Shown: piece after piece, positions 11,298-31,365 of the stretch
Layout of the letters: every line of letters begins with the position of its first letter
Position numbering within the stretch: position 1 is the first letter of the stretch
Source: Phlebiopsis flavidoalba
Lineage: Eukaryota; Basidiomycota; Agaricomycetes; Polyporales; Phanerochaetaceae
DNA length: 42,958 nt
NCBI GenBank assembly: GCA_035772785.1
Contig: JAOCPU010000104.1
Span: 1 to 42,958 of the forward strand
Reading direction: 5' to 3'
The notes under the pieces: generated by a model
The model's database searches: none
Told to the model about the DNA's origin: nothing
Seen by the model: only the letters and a program-made list of their open reading frames with translations
Translations under genes and position numbers: made by a program

Positions 11298-11305
11298 TAT
11301 AAAAG
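11298..11305 (+). promoter_or_regulatory. TATA box of repeat-precursor gene 1
   Basis: TATAAAAG lies about 100 bp upstream of the shared leader and about 280 bp upstream of the ATG. The paralogous gene at 14.7 kb has the identical octamer about 320 bp before its ATG. A strong consensus TATA box suggests high, regulated expression, which is common for fungal secreted proteins. Confidence 0.65.
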
Positions 11306-11397
11306 GGGGCACGAACCGTCGAGTTTCCTCAGCTCCTCAGCTCAACCGCTCACTTACAAGCCTTTTATTCTTTCTTTCCAAGTTCGGGTGCTGGTCT

Positions 11398-11458
11398 GTG
11401 AGTCTACCCATCCATACCTTTACTGTCACACATATACTCACAATGCTCCTTCAACCAG
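11398..11458 (+). other. 5'UTR intron of repeat-precursor gene 1
   Basis: GTGAGT at 11398 and CAACCAG ending at 11458 delimit a 61-nt intron. The paralogue has the same arrangement. The sequences just outside the intron are conserved between the two genes (CCAAGTTCGGGTGC before, CCCGTCTTG after), while the intron interiors differ. That pattern supports transcription and splicing of both leaders. Confidence 0.6.
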
Positions 11459-11579
11459 CCCGTCTTGTCTTGATTTTTACACCACTTTATCCTTATTAAC
11501 TGCAACGACCTTCGTCTCCTTTACGATCTCACGACAATACCTAACTTCCACTCTTAATCACATCTCACTTTACGACAAC

Positions 11580-12965
11580 ATGTTCGGCCCCAAGACCATC
11601 GTTGCTCTCGCTCTCGCTAGCTCTGTTGCACCCACATTCGCCACCCCGTAAGCTATCCTTCTTCATTGGGTTGCCATTCAAACTGACCATCTCGTCAGCA
11701 TCTTCCCCTGGGCGAGCGAGCACCAAGCCCGCGACGACGCTACCCTCGTTGCCCGCGAGCCCGAGCCGTTCGCGCCTGGCAGGATCGGCATCCCTGTTTG
11801 GGATCTCCACACCGCCGCGCGCTGAGCAGTCTGCTCACGGCGCACAGAACGGCCAAAGCTAAGCACGGCCAGCCCAAGCACGGCCACCCCGGCCACAGGC
11901 ACGGTCGCAAGCACGGACACAAGAGGCGGCCGCAAGCACGGGCACAAGGGCCGCAAGCACGGACACAAGCACGGACACAAGGGTCACAAGGCGCACAAGG
12001 CTGTTGCTGAGAAGCAGCAGCACCACGCCCGCGACGAGGTCGAGCTCTACTTGCGCGATCTTCTGCAGGGCTCCCAGGTGCACCGGTACGCGAACTGCTT
12101 CTTACAGAATCGAGTCGTATGTTAATGGGAAATATGCAGCCCTCAACTTCACTTTCCCGCTCCAAGTCGCCCGTGATGTCCCCACGGACGAGTCGGGTGC
12201 CTTTAACCTCGGCAGCATTGTCAAGGGCATCGCGTCTTTCTTGAAGCGCGAGGAGCTCGAGATGCTTGCGCGCGACGTAAGCCCAGAAAGGCCCACTGAC
12301 GAGTCGGGCGCATTCAACTCGGCAGCATCGTCAAGGGCATTGCGTCCTTCCTCAAGCGGCGCGAGGAGGAGATGGAGATGCTCGCCCGTGACGTCCCCAC
12401 CGACGAGTCTGGCGCGTTCAGCCTTGGCAGCATCGTAAAGGGAATCGCGTCTTTCCTCAAGCGTGAGGACCTCGAGATGCTCCGCTCGCGACCTCTCCCA
12501 CCGACGAGTCGGGTGCCTTCAACCTCGGTAGCATTGTCAAGGGCATTGCGTCGTTCCTCAAGCGCGAGGACCGTCGAGATGCTTGCCCGCGACGTCCAAA
12601 CTGACGAGTCCGGTGCTTTCAACCTCGGCAGCCTAGTGAAGGGTGTTCTCTCCGTCCTGAAGCGCGAGGAGTTGGAGATGCTCGCTCGCGATCTCCCCAC
12701 CGACGAGTCCGGCGCATTCAACCTCGGCAGCATTGTCAAGGGCATTGCGTCGTTCCTCAATCGGCGCGAGGACATCGAGATGCTCGCCCGCGATGGCCCA
12801 AACCGACGAGTCCGGCGCATTCAACCTCGGCAGCATTGTGAAGGGTGTCCTTTCCGTCCTCAAGCGCGAGCGAGTTGGAGATGCTTGCTTCGCGATGTCC
12901 CCACCGACGAGTCGGGTGCTTTCAGCCTCGGCAGCCTCGTCAAGGGTATCGCGTCTATCCTCTAG
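11580..12965 (+). CDS. Secreted tandem-repeat precursor 1 (putative Kex2-processed multi-peptide precursor)
   Basis: The start MFGPKTIVALALASSV is a typical signal peptide. Exon 1 ends at 11647 and a 51-nt GT-AG intron (11648-11698) follows. After a pro-region (with GRIGIPVWDLH) comes a stretch of Lys-His-Gly repeats, then AVAEKQQHHARDEVELYLRD and a second short intron (about 12090-12141). The C-terminal two thirds hold eight copies of a unit with consensus EELEMLARDVPTDESGAFN followed by LGSIVKGIASFLKR. Each repeat brings one Lys-Arg, the classical Kex2 site. The last copy ends ...VKGIASIL and stop. The unit is 99 nt, but observed spacings (111, 104, 101, 100, 99, 103, 101 nt) show a frame break in almost every copy. 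Since enolase in the same window is broken the same way, I read these as sequence errors. Peptide release is inference from the sites; no function is known to me. The paralogue lies at 14.7 kb. Confidence 0.7.
12187..12965 (+). repeat. Coding tandem repeat, 8 units of about 99 nt
   Basis: The anchor GACGAGTC(G/C/T)GG starts at 12187, 12298, 12402, 12503, 12603, 12702, 12805 and 12906. Variation between units is mostly synonymous or conservative: SIVKGIASFLKR against SLVKGVLSVLKR, EELEM against EDLEM or EDIEM. This suggests selection at protein level, with exchange between units. Confidence 0.85.
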
Positions 12966-13383
12966 AGCTGTCTGTATTAGAACTGTTGTAGAGAAGGTAT
13001 TTTCTTCGTTGTAGCCAGGTGGTGTATTTTTCAAGTATAGTAAATGAATTGGCTGGTTGAGGACCTCCTTTAATTGCAGTGATTAGTTACAATTTACACG
13101 GGCAACGAGCTCAAGCTCGGGCCGTTTGAGAGCCAAAAGGTATGTTCGGGTTACGTAATCATTCGAATCAGAGACGCGCGGGGAGCGCGTTGGCGCACAG
13201 TGGCTGGTTTCATCGCGACCGCCGCTTTCGAGACTCGATGATGTTTCTCCTCGTAGGTGGCTCTGTGCATATTACTCTAAACGCGACTATGAAAATAGCC
13301 CAAAATTACTGCTGTGAGTTATATAAAGACCATAAGTGCTCAATATTGACTTGGTACTAGGTTGTACCAGTGCCGCATAGCAA

Positions 13384-14215
13384 ATGTCTGTTCAAGTTGC
13401 CAGTCTACTAAGTGCGGGCGGCCCAGACTTCCTTGTCGCCCTACGATTTGAATGTTTATGGGTCACCGGGTAAGATTGGTTTCTTAAGGTGTGTTTTGGA
13501 AACACGTAATCTTACTATAGCTCAAACTGCTCCGATTCGTGATTGCTTACCTTCGGTTAAGCTGTCGCCGGACACCCAAAACTTTGGGCTCGGTCGTTGT
13601 AATTTTCGACCTGCGACACTTCATGCTGGTGTTCCACGAGGTAAAGGTACCGCGAGAGCTATATTTGGAAGCCGTCGCGTCCTACACAATCGTTTTGTCC
13701 GAGCCCGTGGCCCGATTGTCCGCGTCGGCCGTGACTCAGGGGTTGGTTATCAAAGTCGTTGTAAGTCTCGGACGCCGCCAACTGTCATCCGTCTCATTAC
13801 CATCGCGCACGACACTGAAACTTGCGCGTAGGCCGTGATGTTCGCGACATGCTCTCGTGGATACACCCGCCTCCTCGGAAGGCTATTCCTTCACAACTGT
13901 ACAGCTGCTGGATCGTGATGGCATCACCATCTCTCTGTATGTTTGTTGAGAAGACCCTGGACCTCGGGCGTTGTGTGTCCATGTGTTATTGTTAGGAACA
14001 GGTCCTTTCTGCCAAGTGAATCCTCCAAGCCAACCACTCGTCCACTCCCTACGCACTTCATTGACCTCCTGAAGGCCAATATCCAAGACTCCCTCCCAGG
14101 CTATCGCTTTCACATCATCCGGTCGCGTTCGCGTCAAATTCTGGCGGCTGGACTTTCATCATCCAGATCAGATGGACTTCAAGGGTCGCACGGCTGTAAC
14201 AGAACCATTACGTTA
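13384..14215 (+). CDS. Unrecognised multi-exon gene between the two repeat precursors
   Basis: A likely first exon starts at ATG 13384 (MSVQVASLLSAGGPDFLVAL) and ends at a GTAAGA donor (13470). A 51-nt intron to CTATAG (13520) follows. The next exon stays open to about 13838 and is protein-like: LGSVVVIFDLRHFMLVF, then VASYTIVLSEPVARLS. Further right, SSEGYSFTTVQLLDRDGI (about 13875-13930) lies in another frame before a GTATGT donor. After an acceptor TTAG near 13993 comes more coding-like sequence ending around VRVKFWRLDFHHPDQMDF (about 14125-14180). The exon 1 to exon 2 junction does not keep frame, probably through an indel. No family recognised. Its position between two paralogous precursor genes makes it a candidate partner, but that is only context. 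Confidence 0.35.
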
Positions 14216-14401
14216 ATAGACCAAGTAGTCATTGCTTGCGGCATAATGGTGGGATGTGTGGGCAGTGCCCGTTTCACGTTTGGACTCAGCCCGCAATCTG
14301 TCATATTGATCAAGATGAGTTTATCGAGCTACCCAGCCACAACGCGGGCGAAATGTGCAGCCCGCACATCACGCGGGTCACTCCCATGGATCGAACCCAA
14401 G

Positions 14402-14409
14402 TATAAAAG
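14402..14409 (+). promoter_or_regulatory. TATA box of repeat-precursor gene 2
   Basis: TATAAAAG lies upstream of a leader that contains the same CCAAGTTCGGGTGC block and intron as gene 1. The sequence between the box and the leader (TAGTTTCCTC, pyrimidine-rich) is also similar in both genes. Confidence 0.65.
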
Positions 14410-14510
14410 CAAGGAGAACACACCCGAGTACCTCAGCTTGCCTTAGTTTCCTCGTCAACTTTAGGGCCACTTCTCTTCTCTCTTCTTTCCAAGTTCGGGT
14501 GCCGGTCTGT

Positions 14511-14601
14511 GTGAGTATACTAACTACAACTCTTCCTTTGTTGTTTTTTTTTTTTTTTTTTTTTTTTGTAGAACTGTGACTGGACAATCATCGTCTCGTA
14601 G
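14511..14601 (+). other. 5'UTR intron of repeat-precursor gene 2
   Basis: GTGAGT at 14511 and TCGTAG ending at 14601 give a 91-nt intron. It is longer than in gene 1, partly because it holds an uninterrupted T run of more than 20 bases (about 14546-14567). The exonic flanks match those of gene 1. The homopolymer length is likely to be unreliable. Confidence 0.6.
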
Positions 14602-14723
14602 CCCGTCTTGTTTTAATTTGTTCACCACTTTATCTATTATCAACTTTTACGACCCTCCTTCCTTTCCTTTAACGACTTACGATCTCCCTCTATCCTCTCT
14701 CACTACCCAAATTACTACTCAAG

Positions 14724-16477
14724 ATGTACGGAAAGGTTGTCATTAGCCTCGCTCTCGCCGCCGCTGTGGCCCCTGCCATGTGCTACCCGTAAGTATCATG
14801 CCCGAATCATGCGAGCACCCAGATGTTGACAGAATACCTGGATCACAGCGCGACTCCCCTACGTTACTCGTGAAAGAGCAGGCTCTGATTGCCCGTCAGT
14901 TGTCCGGCACCCCGTAAGGCAGCTATTCGATTTTGACTCACTGTGATTAACTCACGTACAATCTGCAGGGGTGACTTCCACGGCCTTCGCACCACTATCG
15001 GCATCCCCGTCTTCAACGGCCACATCTTGCCCGTTGAGCCCTCCGCCTTCATTGGAAGACCTCGAAGTCCCGCGAGGGGACAACCCGAAGAAGGCCCAAC
15101 GGACACAAGTGGCGGCCGCAAGCACGGACACACAAGCATGGCCGCAAGCACGGACAGCAAGCACGGACACAAGGGCCACAAGGGCCACAAGGGCGCTCCG
15201 TCGCGAACAAGCAGAACCACGCCAGCGACGTCGTTGACCTCGCCCAGCGCCGCATCCTGTTCGAGAACTCTGGGCTCCATGTGTACGTTCCCAGCTTTCT
15301 AATCATCGGATAACACGAAAATTGACGATGATTAATATAGCACCCACCGTGATCAATGCCCGCGACATCGACCAGTCTGGCGCGTTCAACCTGTTGAAGG
15401 GCCCTCAGAGGTGCTCTGAACAGGCGTCGAATTCAAGCGCGAGGAGCTCCGACGAGATGCTCGCGGACCCGCGACGTGTCTGAACGACACGAGTCCGGCG
15501 CGTTCATACATCGGCAGCCTCATCAAGGGTGTCCCTCTCTGTTCTCAGCGCGAGGACATTGAGATGCTCGCCCGCGACGTCCCCACCGACGATGTCTGGC
15601 GCATTCAGCATCGGATATTTAAGCCTTATCAAGGGCGTCCTGTCCGTCCTCAAGCGCGAGGACCTCGAGATGCTCGCTCGCGACGTTCCCACCGACGAGC
15701 CTCCGGTGCCTTCAACCTCGGCGGTCTCATCAAGGGCGTCCTTTCTTTCCTCAAGCGCGAGGATATGGAACTCCTTGCCCGCGATGTTGACCAGTCCGGT
15801 GCTTTCAACTTCGGTAGCCTCGTCAAGGGCCTCTTGTCTGTCCTCAAGCGCGAGGACATCGAGATGCTGGCTCGCGACCTCCCACCCTGATGAGTCTGGT
15901 GCCTTCAACCTCGGCGGTCTCATCAAGGGTGTCTTTCCTTCCTCAAGCGCCGAGGACATGGAGCTCCTTGCCCGTGACGTCGACCAGTCCGGTGCCTTCA
16001 ACCTCGGCGGTCTCATCAAGGGCTTCCTCTCCGTTCTCAAGCGGGTAGGACATCGAGATGCTCGCCCGCGACGTCGACCAGTCCTGGTTGCATTCAACTT
16101 CGGCAACCTCATCAAGGGCGTCCTCTCCGTTCTCAAAGCGCGAGGATATCGAGATGTTGGCCCGCGACGTCGACCAGTCCGGTGCTTTCAGCATTGGTAG
16201 CCTCTTCAAGGGTCTCCTGTCCGTTCTCAAGCGCGAGGACATTGAGATGCTCGCTCGCGATGTCCCCACCGACGAGTCTGGTGCCTTCAAACCTCATCGG
16301 GCGCACCGCGGTCTCATCAAGGGTGTTCTCTCCGTTCTCAAGCGCGAGGACATCGAGATGCTCGCTCGCGATGTCTCCGCTGACCAGTCCGGTGCTTTCA
16401 ACTTCGGCAACCTCATCAAGGGTGTCCTCTCTGTCCTCAAGCGCGAGGAGCTCGAGATGCTCGCCCGCTCGCTCTAA
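14724..16477 (+). CDS. Secreted tandem-repeat precursor 2 (putative Kex2-processed multi-peptide precursor)
   Basis: The ATG at 14724 opens a signal peptide (MYGKVVISLALAAAVAPAMC). Short introns follow at 14789-14832 and 14914-14968, both after a CCC/CCCC end as in gene 1. Exon 3 has GIPVFNGHILPVEP, a Lys-His-Gly block (GHKGHKGHKG), and SVANKQNHASDVVDLAQRR, each alignable to gene 1. A fourth intron (about 15285-15339) precedes eleven repeat units. Two forms are intermixed: ...LARDVPTDESGAFN... and a shorter ...LARDVDQSGAFN..., each followed by (F/L)G(S/G/N)L(I/V)KG(V/L)LSVLKR. The final unit ends EELEMLARSL and stop. Frame breaks are frequent, yet every unit remains readable in some frame. 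Processing at Lys-Arg would release 31-33-residue peptides beginning Glu-Asp or Glu-Glu. Function unknown. Confidence 0.7.
15366..16474 (+). repeat. Coding tandem repeat, 11 units of about 93-99 nt
   Basis: SGAF-type anchors occur near 15377, 15493, 15593, 15703, 15796, 15895, 15988, 16081, 16178, 16277 and 16396. Units lacking the Pro-Thr pair (DVDQSGAF) are six bases shorter than those with DVPTDESGAF. The two forms tend to alternate in the left half. Nucleotide similarity to the array of gene 1 is obvious by eye, which supports a common origin. Confidence 0.85.
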
Positions 16478-20699: not shown

Positions 20700-22489
20700 T
20701 TACTTCTTGAGCAGAGCAGGCGCCTCGTGGCCAGCCGAGAAGCCCTTGTCGCACCGCGAAGGACGAGTTTCGTCGCCGAGCTCCTCCCTGCAAGATAAAA
20801 TTGGTGAGAAGGTTACAGGGAAGGACCGCGCGGGTACGCACTCGATACGGAGGAGGGGTGTTGTTACTTGGCGACACGCTCGCTGCGCGCGGGCGCGCCG
20901 GTCTTGATCTGGCCGGTGCCGAGCGCGACGACGAGTGTCCGCGATGAACGTGTTCTTCAGGTCTCACCGCTGCGGTGCGACACCATGTGACGCCCCAGCC
21001 GTCGCTCTGCGAGAGCTGCGCACTATAGATTCCATATCAGCACGCCGCACAAAGTGCGCCTTAATCGATTGCGAAAGACTTACGCCTGGATGGACTCGGG
21101 AGACCGTGCCGATCTGGTTGACCTGTAGCAGTGCGATTATCGGTTAGTGGCTGGGCGAGAGCCAAGAGTGAGAGAGCAAACGTGCCCTGAGCAGGAGGCC
21201 GTTGCAGGCCTTCTTCTCGATGGCGGTCTTGATGCGGAGGGGGTTGGTGACGGTCAAGTCGTCGCCGACGATCTGGATGCCGCTGTTGGCGGTGAAGTGG
21301 CTCCAGGCCTCCCAGTCGTCTGGTCGAAGGGGTCCTCGATCGAGACGATAGGGGTACTTCTTGACGTAGCCGAGGTAGAGGTCCGCGAGCTCCTTGCCCG
21401 AGATCCACTTGCTGGGGTCCGAGTTCGGGTTCTTGAAGTCGAGGTCGTACTTGCCCTCCTTGTATGAGCAAGAACTCGGACGAGGGCGACGTCGAGCGCG
21501 ATCTTGATCTTGCCCTCTGTAGCCGGCCTTCTTGATCGCCTCGCTGAGGAGCTCGAGCGACTCGTCGGCGCCAGAGACGTTGGGCGCGAAACCACCCTCG
21601 TCACCGACGTTGACGGCTGCACGGTAGCATATGACGTCATTGTATGCGTAGAAAACACGCATATATGCACTCACCATCAATACCGTACTTGGCGCTGATG
21701 ACCTTCTTGAGGGTGTGGTAGGTCTCAGTACCAATCTTCATGGCATCGGCGAAGCTGGTAGCACCAGTGGGGAGAAGCATGAACTCCTGGAAGGCGAGCT
21801 TGTTGCCGGCGTGCGAGCCACCGTTGATGACGTTGAAGGAGGGGACGGGGAGGACGTATGGGGGCTTGACACCGGCGAGCTCAGCGGAGGTGCTGGTAGA
21901 GGAGGGACGCCCTTTCTCGGCAGCGGCGGCCTCAGAGACGGCGATCGAGACACCGAGGATGGCGTTGGCACCGAGCTTGCCCTTGTTGGGGGTGCCGTCG
22001 AGCTTGATCAATAAAAAGTCATCAATCTCCTTCTGCTGGGTGACCTTGAGCTGCGACTTGATCAGCTCGGGGCCAATGACGTCGTTGACGTTCGCGACGG
22101 CCTTGAGAACACCTGCAGAACGCGTCCGGCGCGGCGGCGTTAGATCGAGATGTGCGCGAGATTCAAGGTGCATATATGCGTACCCTTGCCGACGTATTGG
22201 GACTTGTCGTCCCGTCCGCGGAGCTCGACGGGCCTCGTGAATGCCCCCGGTGGAGGCACCCGAGGGGACAGCAGCGCGGAAGCGTCCTAGAGAAACGCGT
22301 CGGGTGATCGATTCCCCGGCACACAAGTAGCAGTTAACGCACCCTTATTCGGTGTAGAGGTCGACCTCGGACGGTGGGGTTACCACGGGAGTCGAAGATC
22401 TAGCGGTCGCGTTGAGCGTTTGCAACAGCGTACACTCGAGCGCGTCGTGCAGCACATACCTGGCGTGCGTGTACTTTGGAGATGGACAT
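20700..22489 (-). CDS. eno1: Enolase (phosphopyruvate hydratase)
   Basis: Cytosolic glycolytic enzyme converting 2-phosphoglycerate to phosphoenolpyruvate with two Mg2+ ions. The start at 22489 gives [10 protein letters not shown], then introns at about 22459-22400, 22342-22287, 22183-22113 and 21674-21617, and further ones near the 3' end. Recognisable parts in order: [19 protein letters not shown] (substrate loop), [58 protein letters not shown] (Mg-binding Asp), [18 protein letters not shown] (Mg-binding Asp), SHRSGET (phosphate-contacting Ser-His-Arg) and a C-terminal ...ALLKK before the stop. All key residues can be found, but the frame changes at several points: the start of [12 protein letters not shown], around SIEDPF, exons after 21180, and the last exon. 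Such an essential single-copy gene is unlikely to be dead, so indel errors are the best explanation. One intron near 21185-21127 may use a GC donor. Confidence 0.93.
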
Positions 22490-23624
22490 GGCGGCGGCGG
22501 ATGGAGGAGGACGGGGATGTGAGGGCGGGCAGAGGCCCAGCGGGCGACTTTATGACTCTTGATCGCTTTCCCACGCTGATTATCTCCCACTTGAGGCTGT
22601 TTTACGCCCGCCGCGCGCATGCAGGCCCTGCGCTGAGCTCTGAGAGCGAGCTCGACGCAGAGCTCGCGGCCGACGGTCCTCACATCCGCGGACGCCGTCC
22701 TATCCTTTTGCTTCTCGGTCCTGGACACCGTCTACTCCATAAGCCCAGCCCGCAGAGCCGACATCTCGACATGCCTCGTGAATCTCCCGCGCTTTATCCC
22801 GGTCTAGCCGACGCCCACCCGCCCGCTTTCCACCTCAGCGTCGTCGCTGGCCTCGATTTTTTGGCATGCACATGTCCCCGCGCGGCCTTGTTTTCTCAGA
22901 CCGGGTCCTCTCGATTCCCGATCGCGCACACGCGTGTCGTGTCAGAAAAAAAAAACATCTGCCGGTGACGGGCGTCTGCACTTGTCGTCGCGAGAGCATG
23001 GTGGCACAGCGCAGAGTGGCAGAAATCTGTCGAATCGGCGCGGCGTGCCTGCAGGGGTCTCGCTCAGTTTTAGTGATCCCATATATCGCACAATGCACAC
23101 ATATATACGCAAACTCTATCGCTCAGCCGACAAACACGCTGCCACGATTGGTCTCGGGGGTAGGAGTTACGGTGGGAGCGCGTCCACACTATTTCTGGTA
23201 CCGGGCAGTTCGTATACGCCGCAATGAATCTACGCACCCTGTGTGATACGCCCGAATATCTCGTGACAATGCACTGGACCGAAGTCCCCGGTAGTCTCGT
23301 TTTCTCAGACCTTTAGAGCAGAGTGTTTACTACGTAAGCACCGTAGTAGCAGTGGTAACAGTCGGAGTTTTAAATATCTGCGAGCGCAGTTCGAGCTCCG
23401 ATTGATCGATCAGTGTGAATTCTTACATGATCAATAGCGGGCGTAATGTTTGGGGACGAGACTAAGTCCCCAGGCGCGTTCTGAGCCCACGCCGACTCCC
23501 ACGCAGACAGAGATAGCCCGAATATACTATTTGATGCACGAGGGACAAAGTGTCCCATTTTTACCAAAGCAACCAGGGTGCACACCGCGGGGCGAGCCAA
23601 AGTCCCCGTACCCGGCGGACAACC
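22490..23624. other. Intergenic: enolase promoter and Utp13 3' flank
   Basis: Upstream of enolase on the minus strand the DNA is GC-rich and pyrimidine-biased. No clear TATA box could be fixed. An A run lies at about 22947-22955. No gene recognised. Confidence 0.4.
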
Positions 23625-26600
23625 CTATGCCACCGCGACCACGCCCGCGCCCACATCCACCTCCATGGGCACGCCCGCCCACTCCTCCACTGCATCCCCC
23701 GCTTCCTCCTCCTCATCACCGAGCAAACCCCCGTCCATCTCCTCCAACAGATAATCAACCACATAGCTCTCCTGCACCAGCTTCTCCATCCGCGCAAGAT
23801 GGCGCTCGGTGTACGGCACGAGCGCCTCCACGAGCTCCCGCAGCGGCGCCGCGCCCTTGCCTCCCTCGCCCTCCCCACCAAACGCCTGCATGATATCGTC
23901 CGCTTTATGCAGCTTCACAATCGCGTGCAGCACGCGCTGCGGCGACGACGCTCGTCTTCGCGTTCGCGTTCCACACCGCGCACGTAGCGCAGGAGCGCGG
24001 CGAGGTCCGCGCCGCGCAGAACAGCCTGCGCGGAGCACGGCGTCGACCGCGGGGTGGCCCGTGAGCGCGCCCTGCGTGCCGGCGGGAGGGAGGGCCTTTG
24101 AACAGCAGCGCGTGCAGTCCAGCCCGGGGCTGCTCCATCGCGAGCGCGAGGAGGATGGCGTTGCGGTAGTCTTGGAGCGCGGGTAGTTTTTGGAAGTCTT
24201 GTTCCCTGCTTCCGCGTCAGCAAACGAGTTAGTGATGACGTGAATTTGAAAGCTTACTTGAGTACCTTGGTCGGCGCGTTTGTTCTCCTTTTTCCTGCTC
24301 CTGCTCCGCCCGTGCAGTCCTCGCCAGAACGTGACCACCGAGTCCGCCGCGCCCGACACCACCGTACGCTCGTCCGCGCTCACCGCAAGCGCCCACACCT
24401 TGTCCTCATGGTTGTCCATCGTCGCCGCCACTGTTGATACACACGGCCTCGTCGCGCACGTTCCAGAGCTTGAGCTAAGCCCGTCGCTCGCCGTGCTCAC
24501 TCATCTGCATGCCCGTGCGTTGAGGAAATCGACGCGGAGCACCGAGTTTCGTGTTTGGCCCTCGAACGTCTTCAGAACACGAGTAGGTTGCGTCTCCAGG
24601 CTCGCCACAGGCGCACGCTCCGTTCGCCCGCTCCCCGTCGCGAGCACCCGCTCCGCGCGCCGAAGCGTCACGCTCCACAACGCCCCCGCCGGTGCCCCCG
24701 TGCACGTCCCCAGCAGCCGTATCTCGCCCTTCACCGCGCCGCTGTCATACACGATGTACTCGACCACCGCCCACAACCTTCGCGCTCTATTGTCCTGCGA
24801 GCCCGACACGAGCAGCCGGTCCCGTTCGGCGACACGTCGAGCGCGTTGATGTCCTTCTCGTGCGCGCGGTTGCGTCGCGAGGCTGCGGCACTTGACCGGC
24901 GCAGCCTGCCCAGCGACGAGCGGGACCTCGCGCAGGTCCCACATCTTGATCGTGCGGTCCTGGCTCCCGCTGAACGCGACAGCGCAGGCTCTGCTCGTCC
25001 GTCGCTGCGCGCGCGAGCGCGACTGCGCCGACGCTCTCTCGCGCGTGCGCCCTCGCAAAACACCGCGACGCAGGCCTCCACTCCTCCGTAGTGGAGGAGG
25101 GCGCCCAGGAGCCGCAGCGAAAGGCGGTCCTTGCTCCCGCTCGCGAGCACGGCGCCTCGCTCCTGGGGGCCTTGTCGAGCGCAGAGCACGATCTCGGCGT
25201 GGCCCGCGAGGAGCGCGCGTCTAGCGACTGGGTGTTGTACACACGCGGATGAGCGACGAGTTGGGTCGCGAGCGTCGAGGTGTGTGTCGAGTGTGCCCCG
25301 TCGGCGAGAGGAAAGGTTGCGTCGACGTATTTCACGTCGTTGAAGCCGATGAGCTGGCGTGGTGAGCGAGCGCGTGGTGAGAGAGTGGAAGAGGATGTTT
25401 TGGTCAGGCACGTGGATGTGGAGACTACTGTGGACGTTGACGGGACGTACCTATTTACTTTGTCAGTGGATGTATGATTTACATCGCTGGGATCACTCAC
25501 AGTGCGTCCACAATCTGTCGCTGCTCTTCCTGTTCCTCGGTTGTCGACTCTAGCTCCTGTCCGAGTGTATAGAGCACTTCACCCTTGCGCGCGTCCCAAA
25601 CTTTAATGACGCCCTTCTCTCCGCCAGTGTATATATGCAAGCTTCGTCGCACCCGAGGTAGTCCCAGCGAGGTCCTCGTCCTGCCGGAGCAGACCCACCA
25701 CGCTCTCCACCCGTCTGTCCAGGATAGGTATCGTCCTAGCGACGAGGACGTCGGCGCGCCGTCCTTTTCCTTTCCCTTTGCCTTGCTGCTTTTCGGCTTC
25801 GCCTCCCTCCGCGGGCTTCGGCGATATATCCCACACAAGCACCACCGTGTCGCGCCCCCCACTAACCAGCCACTTGCCGTCCCTCGTCACACATCCAGTC
25901 CCCTTGGCACCGACACATGCATGCCCCTCGAGCACCGCCTCAGGCCGCGCCGCCGCGCCCGAGCGCGCCTTGTGTCCGGCGCGAGGTTCAAACACGCGGA
26001 TCTTTCGTGTCGACGCACGCCGTGATGTAGCTGCATATGCATGCGCGGCGCGCTGCGGCTCGAGCGCACGGCGGCCGCGTCGAAGGGCACGTTGAAACAC
26101 GAGCGCGCTCACGACGCTATCGCCGTGCCCTTGAAGACGTGCGTCCGCGAAGCCGCGCGCGATGTCCCCACACTTTGACCACGCCGCTCGGCCGCCGCTG
26201 AGAGGACGCGAGGTATGTCGAGGCTATGGGTCTGTGCGGCAGACGTGTTGTGATTAAACTGGGGCGGGGGGGGGTCGTGCGCGCGGGCGATGACGCGTAC
26301 GGGTTGCACAGGTTTGGAGATTGGTGTGTTGGAGGTGGGGAGTTCGTAAATACGTAAGGGCGAGGGCGGAGGTGATAAACAGCAGGAGGTGGGTCGAGGC
26401 GGTGGGAGATGCACATGGCTGTAAATGGACTCTGTGTCCTACATACGAGTTAGTTTCCTATCCTCGGGAAGACATAGCAAAAGATCAGCACCACAGAGAC
26501 TAGTCGGAAAGAGTCACACACCCTGCAAAGCGACATATCTCTCTTCCCTCGCTCCACATCCGTCAAAACCGCCATCCTCACCGACACAAGTAACAAGTCT

Positions 26601-28929: not shown

Positions 28930-30627
28930 TCAAAAAGGTATCCAAGAACTGAACTCAGATGCAGCAAACAACGACTTACGGAACGCACGAGATCCCCACA
29001 AGCCCCGCCCCACATCACCCTCCCACGACGTCACGCAACGCGCCCCCTCCCCACCGCGAGCCGCACACAAGGGGCTACCGCGGCGGGCGGCGCCATGCCC
29101 GCCGCGCGCACCTGTACCGATCCGCAGCTGCTCATCCGCGACGCGCCTTCTTCTCGCCTCCTCGTCCGCGACGCGCTCCGCCTCGACGCGCCGCCTTGTC
29201 TCGTCCTCGAGCCGGCTCTCCGACATCTTGAGCGCCTGCTTCGCGCGCGCCGCGTCCGTCTCCGCGCGCGTGAGCGAGTTTTTGTTGAGCCGGATGACGA
29301 GCGACTCCTGGTCCGTCGTGTGCCGCTTCAGGCTCTCGACTTCCTGCCGCAGCTGCGCGATCAGCGCGTCCTCCGCCCGCGGCACAGGCGGCGGCGGCGG
29401 CGGCGCGTACCCGTTCGAGAACGCCCCGTGCAGCCGCGGCTGGTGCGTCGGCGTGTGATTGTGGTTCGGGTGCGCGTGCGGGTGCACGGGGCTGTGCTGC
29501 GCGCGGTAGCTCGTCGCAGTGCTCGAGCTCGACGTCGCGCTGAGCGGGGGCTGGTACGGGTGGTACGCGGGCGGCGCGCGCGCGCCGCCGACGGGGGGCT
29601 CGTCCTCGCTAAAGTCCTCGTCCGACAGCACGTGCGGGCCCCCGGGGCCCCACTCCATCTCGTCGTCGTCCTCGTCGTCGTACGGGCTCTGCCGTACCGC
29701 CGACGTCTTGAACGAGTGCGCGTCGACGGGCCGCAGGATCGTCGACTGCAGCGGCGGCCGCCCGCTGCCATTCTCCTCCCGCCGCGGCGCCTGCTGCGGG
29801 GGCGGCGGCGGGACGTGCGGAGGCGCGCGCAGGCGGCGGCGGCGGGTGGTGCACGGCGTGCTCGTGGCGCATGGGCATCACGGGGATGTAGGCCGGCTTC
29901 TCCATGAGGGGCGTCGGGACGGGCTGCTGCTGCTGCAGCTGCTCCTTCTGCGTGCGGCCGCGCTTACGCGGGCGCTTCGTGCCTGGGGGGGCCTCCAGGT
30001 TCACGGTCCAGTACGAGCCAAAGCCGGGGTCCGTCGCTGGCCGCTGCTGGCGCTCGAACAGCCGGTTCAGCGAGAGGTGGTGCCGCACGGATTGCTGTGG
30101 GCGCCGTCGTCGTCGTTGTCAGCATGCGCACACAAACACGCGCGCGCGGGGGCGGGCGCACGTACCTTCCATGCGGGGCCTGCGGTCGTGTAGTACGGGT
30201 ACTTTTTCTCCATCGCGGCATATATCTCGCGGATCGTGAGCCGTTTCTTGGGGCTGCCGAGGATCGCGCATCGCAGGATGACGGGCAGGGTATGTTGTGG
30301 GCGGCCGTTGGTATCGGGCAGGCAGGCGAGGGTATCTGGGCAGTCGGGGTGGGCTCGTGGGGACGCATGACAATGTCTGTCTGCGCATAGTAGTTGGACT
30401 CGGCCGCGGCGCGTTCGTACGCCATCGTGTTCGGCGGCGTGCGGCGGCGATGGCGAGGAGGACGAGAGCTGCTGGTGGCGTGCTGCAGGCTGGGGCACGA
30501 GGTCAGCGTCGGGCTCGCGCAGGGCGCCCGAGGACGCATGCGGCGGGCGGCGGGCTGGGGCGGGTACGCACCGCATGTCGCGCTCCTGGGTGCTCTCCGG
30601 GTTGAGGAGGTTGTTGAGGCTGGCCAT
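28930..30627 (-). CDS. Forkhead (winged-helix) transcription factor with C-terminal coiled coil
   Basis: The start at 30627 reads MASLNNLLNPESTQERDM. A donor at 30571 and an intron follow, then NTMAYERAAAESNYYAQTDI. The forkhead domain follows: LRCAILGSPKKRLTIREIYA and MEKKYPYYTTAGPAWK to a donor at 30165. After a 71-nt intron, the recognition helix QSVRHHLSLNRLFERQ starts at 30094, then DPGFGSYWTVN (wing) and a basic tail GTKRPRKRGRTQKEQ. The helix has His where most forkheads have Asn (RHHLSLN for RHNLSLN). Downstream are poly-Gln, Pro-rich and acidic segments (SDEDFSEDEPP). They are followed by a heptad-like coiled coil, ALIAQLRQEVESLKR through RLEDETRRRVEAERVADEEA (about 29370-29140). The 3' end is uncertain because of possible late introns. 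A nuclear DNA-binding regulator; targets cannot be inferred. Confidence 0.82.
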
Positions 30628-31365
30628 GGAGGTGCAGACGGCGATCAGGGAGGGGATGGTGGTGTGTGGGTGGGAGGGGGAGTTTGTCCTGTGGGTCCAA
30701 ACGTGCAGGTCCATTGTTGTTTTCAGAGGCGCCAGCCAGATCCGCCCTGCCTTGATTGTCTACTGCCCGGGGCCGCATCCGGGGTCCTGGCCTCTTTCCG
30801 GGCACAGTGGGCCTTGTGGCTCCCCGCGTGCGACAACCCCGCCGGCAGATGGCGCGACAGAGACCCCGACGGCACAGCGCCCGACACGCCCGCCGCGCGC
30901 GCGCGCACACCGCCGTCCCACATGACTCACGCCCTGTGCGGCGGCGGCGCGCAGCTGCCCAGGAGCCTGGCGGGCCAGCCGCCGCCCCAGCCTCCGCCTC
31001 GGGCGGCGCGCGCGGGGCGCATTCGGCCGTCTGCCTCGGCACATCCCAGGTCCCCTAAGCTCAATCACTCGCACACAAGCCACGAGAACGCGTCCCACGC
31101 GCCCCCGCTACACGTAACCCCGCGCGTGTTCGCTCGCCGCCCTCCCGCGATGGGTCCGCTCTCGCCCCGCCCACGCGATCACACAACACACCCATGCAGC
31201 GCATGAGCCGCACGACACATTGATACGGGCGCCGGCATGTGGACCCATGGATGGCCCACAGGATGGACACGGGCGTGATGCCAGGGTATCGTACAACAGA
31301 TTCCGCAGATGGCTGATACAGCGTCCACATGCTACTATGTACACAGTCCCCCTTGCTCCAAACCC
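30628..31365. other. Intergenic between NIPSNAP and forkhead genes
   Basis: Very GC-rich upstream region of the forkhead gene, with a long chance-open frame on the + strand (30394-31206) of Arg/Ala/Pro-rich composition. No conserved protein text seen. Confidence 0.4.

Follow-up and report, generated by a model that had tools for sequence, protein, structure and literature searches.

Tandem repeat-precursor genes of Phlebiopsis flavidoalba predicted to yield kexin-processed, amphipathic helical peptides

We studied a stretch of 42,958 nucleotides from the basidiomycete Phlebiopsis flavidoalba (contig JAOCPU010000104.1, forward strand), hereafter the window, which is contig C104 of a genome of 36.3 Mb in 129 contigs. 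It carries two paralogous genes in tandem, copy A (11580-12965) and copy B (14724-16477), placed head to tail on the plus strand, each of which would encode a secreted precursor with peptide units punctuated by Lys-Arg. Our preferred reading, to which we give a probability of about 0.6, is that A and B are KEX2-processed repeat proteins (KEPs) whose units would be cut out as helical peptides. Kexin-type processing of such precursors is likely, and excision at two sites per unit, one at Lys-Arg and one at a monobasic Ala-Arg, has somewhat better than even odds; the products are best read as linear, amphipathic helical and mildly acidic peptides. The rival readings weighed below overlap, so that adding their odds to that of the preferred reading does not give one.

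Both copies have the same architecture: a TATA-like box, a 5' leader shared by the two, a short signal-like exon, then a pro-region that includes a His/Lys/Gly-rich stretch, and finally the repeat array. An earlier note on this DNA had described two paralogues with a signal peptide, a pro-region and 8 or 11 units, and this was borne out, i.e., copy A has 8 SGA anchors, copy B has 10 plus one broken by indels, and signal-like first exons (MFGPKTIVALALASSVAPTFATP in A, MYGKVVISLALAAAVAPAMCYP in B) and His/Lys/Gly-rich pro-regions are present. Tandem Repeats Finder detected both arrays (scores of 671-903, with periods of 93-101 or about double), which ruled out a chance origin of the repeats. The features of the two genes, all on the plus strand, are the following:

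11298..11305, +, TATA-like box of copy A, TATAAAAG, in alignment with its counterparts in B and C (see below)
11375..11395, +, 5' leader motif of 21 bases in copy A, TTYCCAAGTTCRGGTGCYGGT, identical in all three copies A, B and C, 2 mismatches at C39
11580..11648, +, exon 1 of copy A, signal-peptide-like, with splice sites inferred by eye (GTAAGC..CAG intron after it)
11699..12070, +, pro-region of copy A, His/Lys/Gly-rich at about 11860-12000
12166..12965, +, repeat array of copy A, 8 units, SGA anchors at 12193, 12304, 12408, 12509, 12609, 12708, 12811 and 12912
14402..14409, +, TATA-like box of copy B, aligned with copies A and C
14486..14506, +, 5' leader motif of copy B, exact match
14724..14789, +, exon 1 of copy B, signal-peptide-like, read from sequence
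14850..15290, +, pro-region of copy B with introns, exon limits inferred, His/Lys/Gly-rich at about 15090-15200
15355..16477, +, repeat array of copy B, 11 units, with 10 readable SGA anchors and one broken at about 16079-16142

The family unit has the following order: an acidic stretch, D(E/Q/A)SGA, a hydrophobic core, (K/R)R, E(E/D)xE and (L/M)(L/M)AR. The earlier claim that every unit ends in Leu-Lys-Arg directly before Glu-Glu or Glu-Asp held for most units: a loose codon-level pattern for Lys-Arg-Glu-Glu/Asp, tolerant of small indels, matched 5 of the 8 units in A and 9 of the 11 in B, and the exact string AAGCG(C/T)GAGGA occurred 4 and 8 times, respectively. The units outside the loose pattern were, in A, two with few base differences and the last one, which stops without Lys-Arg; in B, one reads Phe-Lys-Arg-Glu-Glu and another has an insertion. 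The units also presented a second conserved cut-like site, the monobasic (hydrophobic)-Ala-Arg, separated from Lys-Arg by an acidic spacer. This site was absent from the earlier note, as were a third close paralogue, copy C on contig C55, and a fourth on C39.

Searches of protein databases yielded 54 relatives: 4 came from a search with the natural open frame of copy C, profiles brought the number to 39, and a more diverse seed returned 24, of which 15 were new. This number is a lower bound, each protein search having scored only about 8000 candidates that shared most words, and it includes fragments, some of them lacking a start. The named sources were Cerrena zonata, Cristinia sonorae, Antrodiella citrinella, Steccherinum ochraceum, Somion occarium, Irpex rosettiformis, Phlebiopsis gigantea, Hermanssonia centrifuga, Trametopsis cervina, Phanerochaete sordida, Cytidiella melzeri and Amylocystis lapponica, i.e., 11 of 12 species belong to Polyporales and Cristinia to Agaricales. 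Apart from EF-hand labels on P0022 and P0040, the relatives are called 'hypothetical', 'uncharacterized' or 'unnamed' wherever their sources name them. At least three [KR]R[EDA] sites were present in 45 of the 54, and 32 of the 54 had a signal-like N-terminus by a crude rule, the fragments without a start being counted among the 54.

Both kinds of site were far in excess of chance. In 39 relatives, [KR]R[EDA] occurred 211 times (mean of 500 shuffles 23.0, maximum 35) and [LIVMFY]AR 260 times (mean 26.9, maximum 44). Among 226 anchored segments of the same relatives, the dibasic site was present in 184, the monobasic site in 185 and both in 161, and 18 had neither; inspected examples without the dibasic site often had Gly-Arg, Asn-Arg or Ser-Arg before Glu, so that Arg-Glu was kept. 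Over 285 dibasic sites in the 54 relatives, the monobasic Arg that came next lay 8 residues from the dibasic Arg at 143, 7 or 9 residues at 42 and some other distance at 42, and none was found at 58. The monobasic site also recurred in pro-regions. In addition, 31 of the 54 relatives, including P0002, P0004 and P0005, ended in a hexapeptide S(L/I)(N/E)xL(D/N), of SLN(E/D)LD type, which came straight after Arg in 27 of them; this tail may serve as a sorting signal or be set free as a hexapeptide.

With two conserved Arg sites per unit, a core of 21-23 residues is likelier than the product of 31-33 residues proposed before: the regular Lys-Arg units of that proposal stood, and its length gave way to the conserved monobasic site, most often 8 residues after Lys-Arg. 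The predicted two-site product has 21-23 residues and a net charge of -1 to -2, and the one predicted from Lys-Arg cuts only, after trimming of Lys-Arg, 29-31 residues and -3 to -4 (peptides checked). Cutting solely at Lys-Arg, which would leave units of 29-33 residues with their acidic N-terminal segment, agrees with the regular units and with Lys-Arg being the canonical kexin site, Ala-Arg being monobasic. We nevertheless regard it as rather unlikely, given a monobasic site as conserved as the dibasic one (185 versus 184 segments), the predominance of the 8-residue spacing, and the recurrence of Ala-Arg in pro-regions and of Arg before the C-terminal tail.

The cores had a distinctive composition. 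In 144 distinct family cores, Glu made up 1.0%, Arg 0.4% and Tyr 0.2%, with no Cys listed, and the 12 own cores examined contained neither Tyr nor Cys, as the earlier note had remarked; over all residues of the 54 relatives Cys amounted to 0.09% and Tyr to 0.59%. For composition and periodicity tests, family cores with (hydrophobic)-Ala-Arg were excluded and cores ended at the dibasic site, which in part accounts for the low share of Arg. At 100 degrees, 96 of 144 family cores and 11 of 12 own cores had a hydrophobic moment above that of shuffles (p<0.05). The mean moment peaked at 100-110 degrees, the value for a helix, both in the family (182 cores) and in 9 own cores, and in the same 182 family cores the moment at 150-180 degrees lay below the shuffles. 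An AlphaFold model of P0004, built on a 12-sequence alignment, had no confident overall fold (predicted template modelling score 0.31, mean predicted local distance difference test score 55); each core was modelled as helical, and in two of three units there was a break near the dibasic site with the spacer as a separate helix.

In a departure from the earlier note, neither A nor B has a single intact frame, and their units are spread over all three frames. In the window's enolase gene (21100-22400, minus strand), the frame switches within a few bases inside the conserved SGASTG..IHEA..VELR stretch, where no intron fits (by eye); the enolase Pfam match was spread across three frames, part of which introns may account for. 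Since the enolase gene shows the same kind of indel, the breaks in A and B are most likely indels of the assembly. Proportions of nonsynonymous (pN) and synonymous (pS) differences were calculated for 13 of about 30 units (A 2, B 4, C 7), which were free of indels and fitted a 27-residue pattern, about 17 being dropped; their 78 pairs gave pS 0.49, pN 0.17 and pN/pS 0.34, which argues against decay. That A and B are decayed pseudogenes, as the frameshifts in both arrays might indicate, is thus very improbable in view of this ratio and of the enolase gene.

Between A/B and C (42 pairs), pN was 0.31 in the core and 0.09 in the Lys-Arg/spacer part, i.e., cores diverge between paralogues and the processing segment is held. 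This difference bears on another reading, in which the protein stays uncut as a secreted repetitive structural protein of the cell wall or matrix and its basic residues serve another purpose. Repetitive wall proteins are common in fungi, and cleavage is here a prediction. The different evolution of core and processing segments, the roughly 9-fold excess of dibasic and monobasic sites over shuffles and the lack of a confident overall fold for P0004 speak against an uncut protein, which we consider improbable.

The family is larger than the tandem pair. Copy C has 11 units and a signal-like first exon (by eye), and its counterpart of the TATA-like box of copy A is TTTAAAAG in an alignment of A, B and C. 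The paralogue on C39 has a signal-like start, a Lys/His-rich stretch and apparently two units (by eye), and its pro-region was 29% identical to relative P0004 (E 1.6e-5). Further members were found on C21, C5, C50, C10 and C69, and C19, C72 and another part of C5 gave weaker signs; together with A, B, C and the C39 paralogue there are at least nine family loci on eight contigs. The member on C21 was 73% identical over about 100 residues to P0040 of Hermanssonia centrifuga. A search of the whole genome for the 21-base leader motif, allowing up to 2 mismatches, gave four matches (C104:11375, C104:14486, C55:212060 and C39:94996), and a control with the backwards pattern gave none. The motif is thus confined genome-wide to this peptide gene family, and it appears to be followed downstream by an intron of the 5' untranslated region. 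The His/Lys/Gly-rich (HGHKHGRK-like) stretch of the pro-region was seen in A, B and P0004; a role in metal binding or solubility is possible.

Both strands of the window were scanned with Pfam at 1.5-11.1 kb and at 16.5-26.1 kb (E up to 1e-4); no flanking modification gene emerged, enolase and Utp13/WD40 being the only matches and indels lowering the sensitivity. The Utp13-like WD40 protein lies at 23600-25500 (minus strand), a forkhead-domain fragment was noted at 30067-30714 (minus strand), and scans of the window with Rfam (gathering thresholds) and for tRNAs gave nothing. The open frames of the arrays had only sub-cut-off Pfam matches. The relatives had scattered matches to unrelated families: P0043 and P0023 passed some cut-offs, none of them by one stretch alone among the rows shown, and P0001 has a precomputed PF18311 (Rrp40_N) label (best E 2.8e-08). 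As different members match different families, we read these matches as effects of repetition and composition. A paper on HAM-5, found by searching the literature with tail or core letters, was set aside as unrelated on the strength of its title.

EF-hand-like calcium-binding repeats deserve mention here, D(x)SGA(L/I) resembling the start of an EF-hand loop, P0040 and P0022 being named as such, and P0043 passing the Pfam EF-hand cut-offs on summed hits. The calcium ligands of an EF-hand occupy loop positions 1, 3 and 5, plus Glu or Asp at position 12. In 367 anchors, Asp made up 72% of position 3, 21% of position 1 and 10% of position 12, where Glu was not among the seven commonest residues; P0043 had no single stretch that passed alone, and among solved structures the two matches, to EF-hand kinases, were not significant (E 0.43 and 0.78). 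Membership was rejected on positions 1 and 12, and this reading is the least credible of those considered.

To return to KEX2-type processing, the precursor would enter the secretory pathway through its signal peptide and be cleaved by a kexin after Lys-Arg in each unit. A kexin candidate is present in the genome, with an S8 domain at C1:694370-695080 and a P_proprotein domain just downstream (C1:695473-695787), as in kexins. A second cut, by the same or another protease, would fall behind the monobasic (hydrophobic)-Ala-Arg, commonly 8 residues on, and between them the two cuts would remove an acidic ED(I/L)EMLAR-type spacer. A carboxypeptidase would then trim Lys-Arg, leaving 8-11 copies of a linear peptide of 21-23 residues, e.g., DVPTDESGAFNLGSIVKGIASFL. 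Mushroom KEPs expressed in Pichia gave products apparently cut after a single Arg (Vogt et al., PMC9769878). We favour a role at interfaces, in which the peptide would coat or wet hyphae and substrate or perturb competitors' membranes, over that of a cross-linked toxin or mating pheromone; such a role, at interfaces or membranes, is a reasoned guess to which we give slightly less than even odds. More tentative still is a broader picture, in which a large undescribed family of wood-decay mushrooms, with many paralogues per genome, would excise each unit at two sites, discarding an acidic helical spacer by which the amphipathic core is kept harmless while still within the cell, and so deploy a diversifying arsenal of surfactant-like or membrane-active helical peptides.

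Several observations weigh against these proposals. Monobasic Ala-Arg is weaker evidence for a kexin than Lys-Arg, and 24 of the 226 segments had the monobasic site without the dibasic one and 23 the reverse. Within copy C (21 pairs), pN was about the same in the core (0.08) and in the processing part (0.09). Periodicity also showed smaller excesses, at 130 degrees for the family (z 7) and at 180 degrees for own cores (z 2.7), these z-scores being inflated because the units are related, and the third unit of the P0004 model was one continuous helix running through the dibasic site from core to spacer. The candidate mature peptides, with a net charge of -1 to -2, are unlike classical antimicrobial peptides; several mushroom KEP peptides had no antibacterial activity and kep knockouts had no phenotype (PMC9769878).

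KEPs are widespread in fungi, and few have a known function. The kind of precursor is known in fungi, and no name or function was found for this particular family. Its presence in 12 named Agaricomycete species and at no fewer than nine loci in one genome, with processing segments held and helical cores variable, yields a concrete peptide prediction. Peptides of this kind would probably be surface- or membrane-active. Two-site excision, if true, would be a further route of peptide release from fungal repeat precursors.

The family can be compared with several known systems. It shares a KEP-type precursor with the dikaritins (ustiloxin and phomopsin type), which are ribosomally synthesized and post-translationally modified peptides. 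In the genome scan no UstYa (DUF3328) gene lay beside the precursors on C104 or C55, and Tyr was absent from the 12 own cores and rare in the 144 family cores. Membership was rejected on these grounds, and with neither Tyr nor Cys in the own cores and no UstYa on those contigs, a linear product is likelier than a cross-linked one. UstYa matches over the cut-off occurred on C50 and C18 (two hits), with a sub-threshold one on C59. On C50 a family member and a UstYa match share one contig (163-165k and 273k), about 109 kb apart, and are probably unrelated.

With yeast alpha-factor the family shares the succession of Lys-Arg, an acidic spacer and a peptide, in a multi-unit layout. A signalling peptide of the alpha-pheromone kind would differ from the KEP readings in function only. 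Here, in contrast to alpha-factor, the spacer ends in Ala-Arg, and the STE13-type dipeptides XA/XP showed no clear enrichment (20 of 315 after dibasic sites, 60 of 332 or 18% after monobasic ones, against 15% Ala plus Pro overall). The count after dibasic sites being below the composition-based expectation, alpha-pheromone membership was rejected, and with cores that differ between paralogues a signalling role is unlikely.

Ece1 of Candida albicans, the precursor of candidalysin, also has multiple KR sites and gives an amphipathic peptide of 31 residues by Kex2 and then Kex1 (PMC5784256). Candidalysin is a toxin that acts on humans, and the present candidates, set apart from it without sequence comparison, are mildly acidic and, with two cuts per unit, would be shorter. 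Rep1 of Ustilago maydis is likewise cut by kexin into repeated peptides, of 37 residues, which are said to affect hyphal wall properties. They form amyloid-like fibrils (PMC9769878); as far as periodicity goes, the present cores favour helix over strand.

The closest likeness is to KEPs in general (PMC6339444, PMC7329392, PMC9769878), with which the family shares a signal peptide, at least three near-identical units split by KR/RR and repeats filling much of the protein. Le Marquer and Umemura define them by at least three repeats of 8-100 residues between KR/RR/KK/RK sites. As far as can be read from the DNA, A and B fall within these definitions, as the earlier note's Kex2-type layout implied: read across the frameshifts they have 8 and 11 units, and signal-like first exons were recognized by eye in A, B and C. 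The 'undescribed peptide system' of that note was right in part. KEPs had already been described, with peptides detected by mass spectrometry in the Agaricomycetes Coprinopsis, Lentinula and Pleurotus (Vogt et al., PMC9769878), and Phlebiopsis and Antrodiella are among the genera surveyed for them. In the KEP literature searched we found no described member of the present family, the supplementary tables of the surveys, where one may be listed, lying outside that scope. To the general KEP plan the family adds a monobasic Ala-Arg site, an acidic spacer of mostly 8 residues, amphipathic-helix cores and a C-terminus of the SLN(E/D)LD type.

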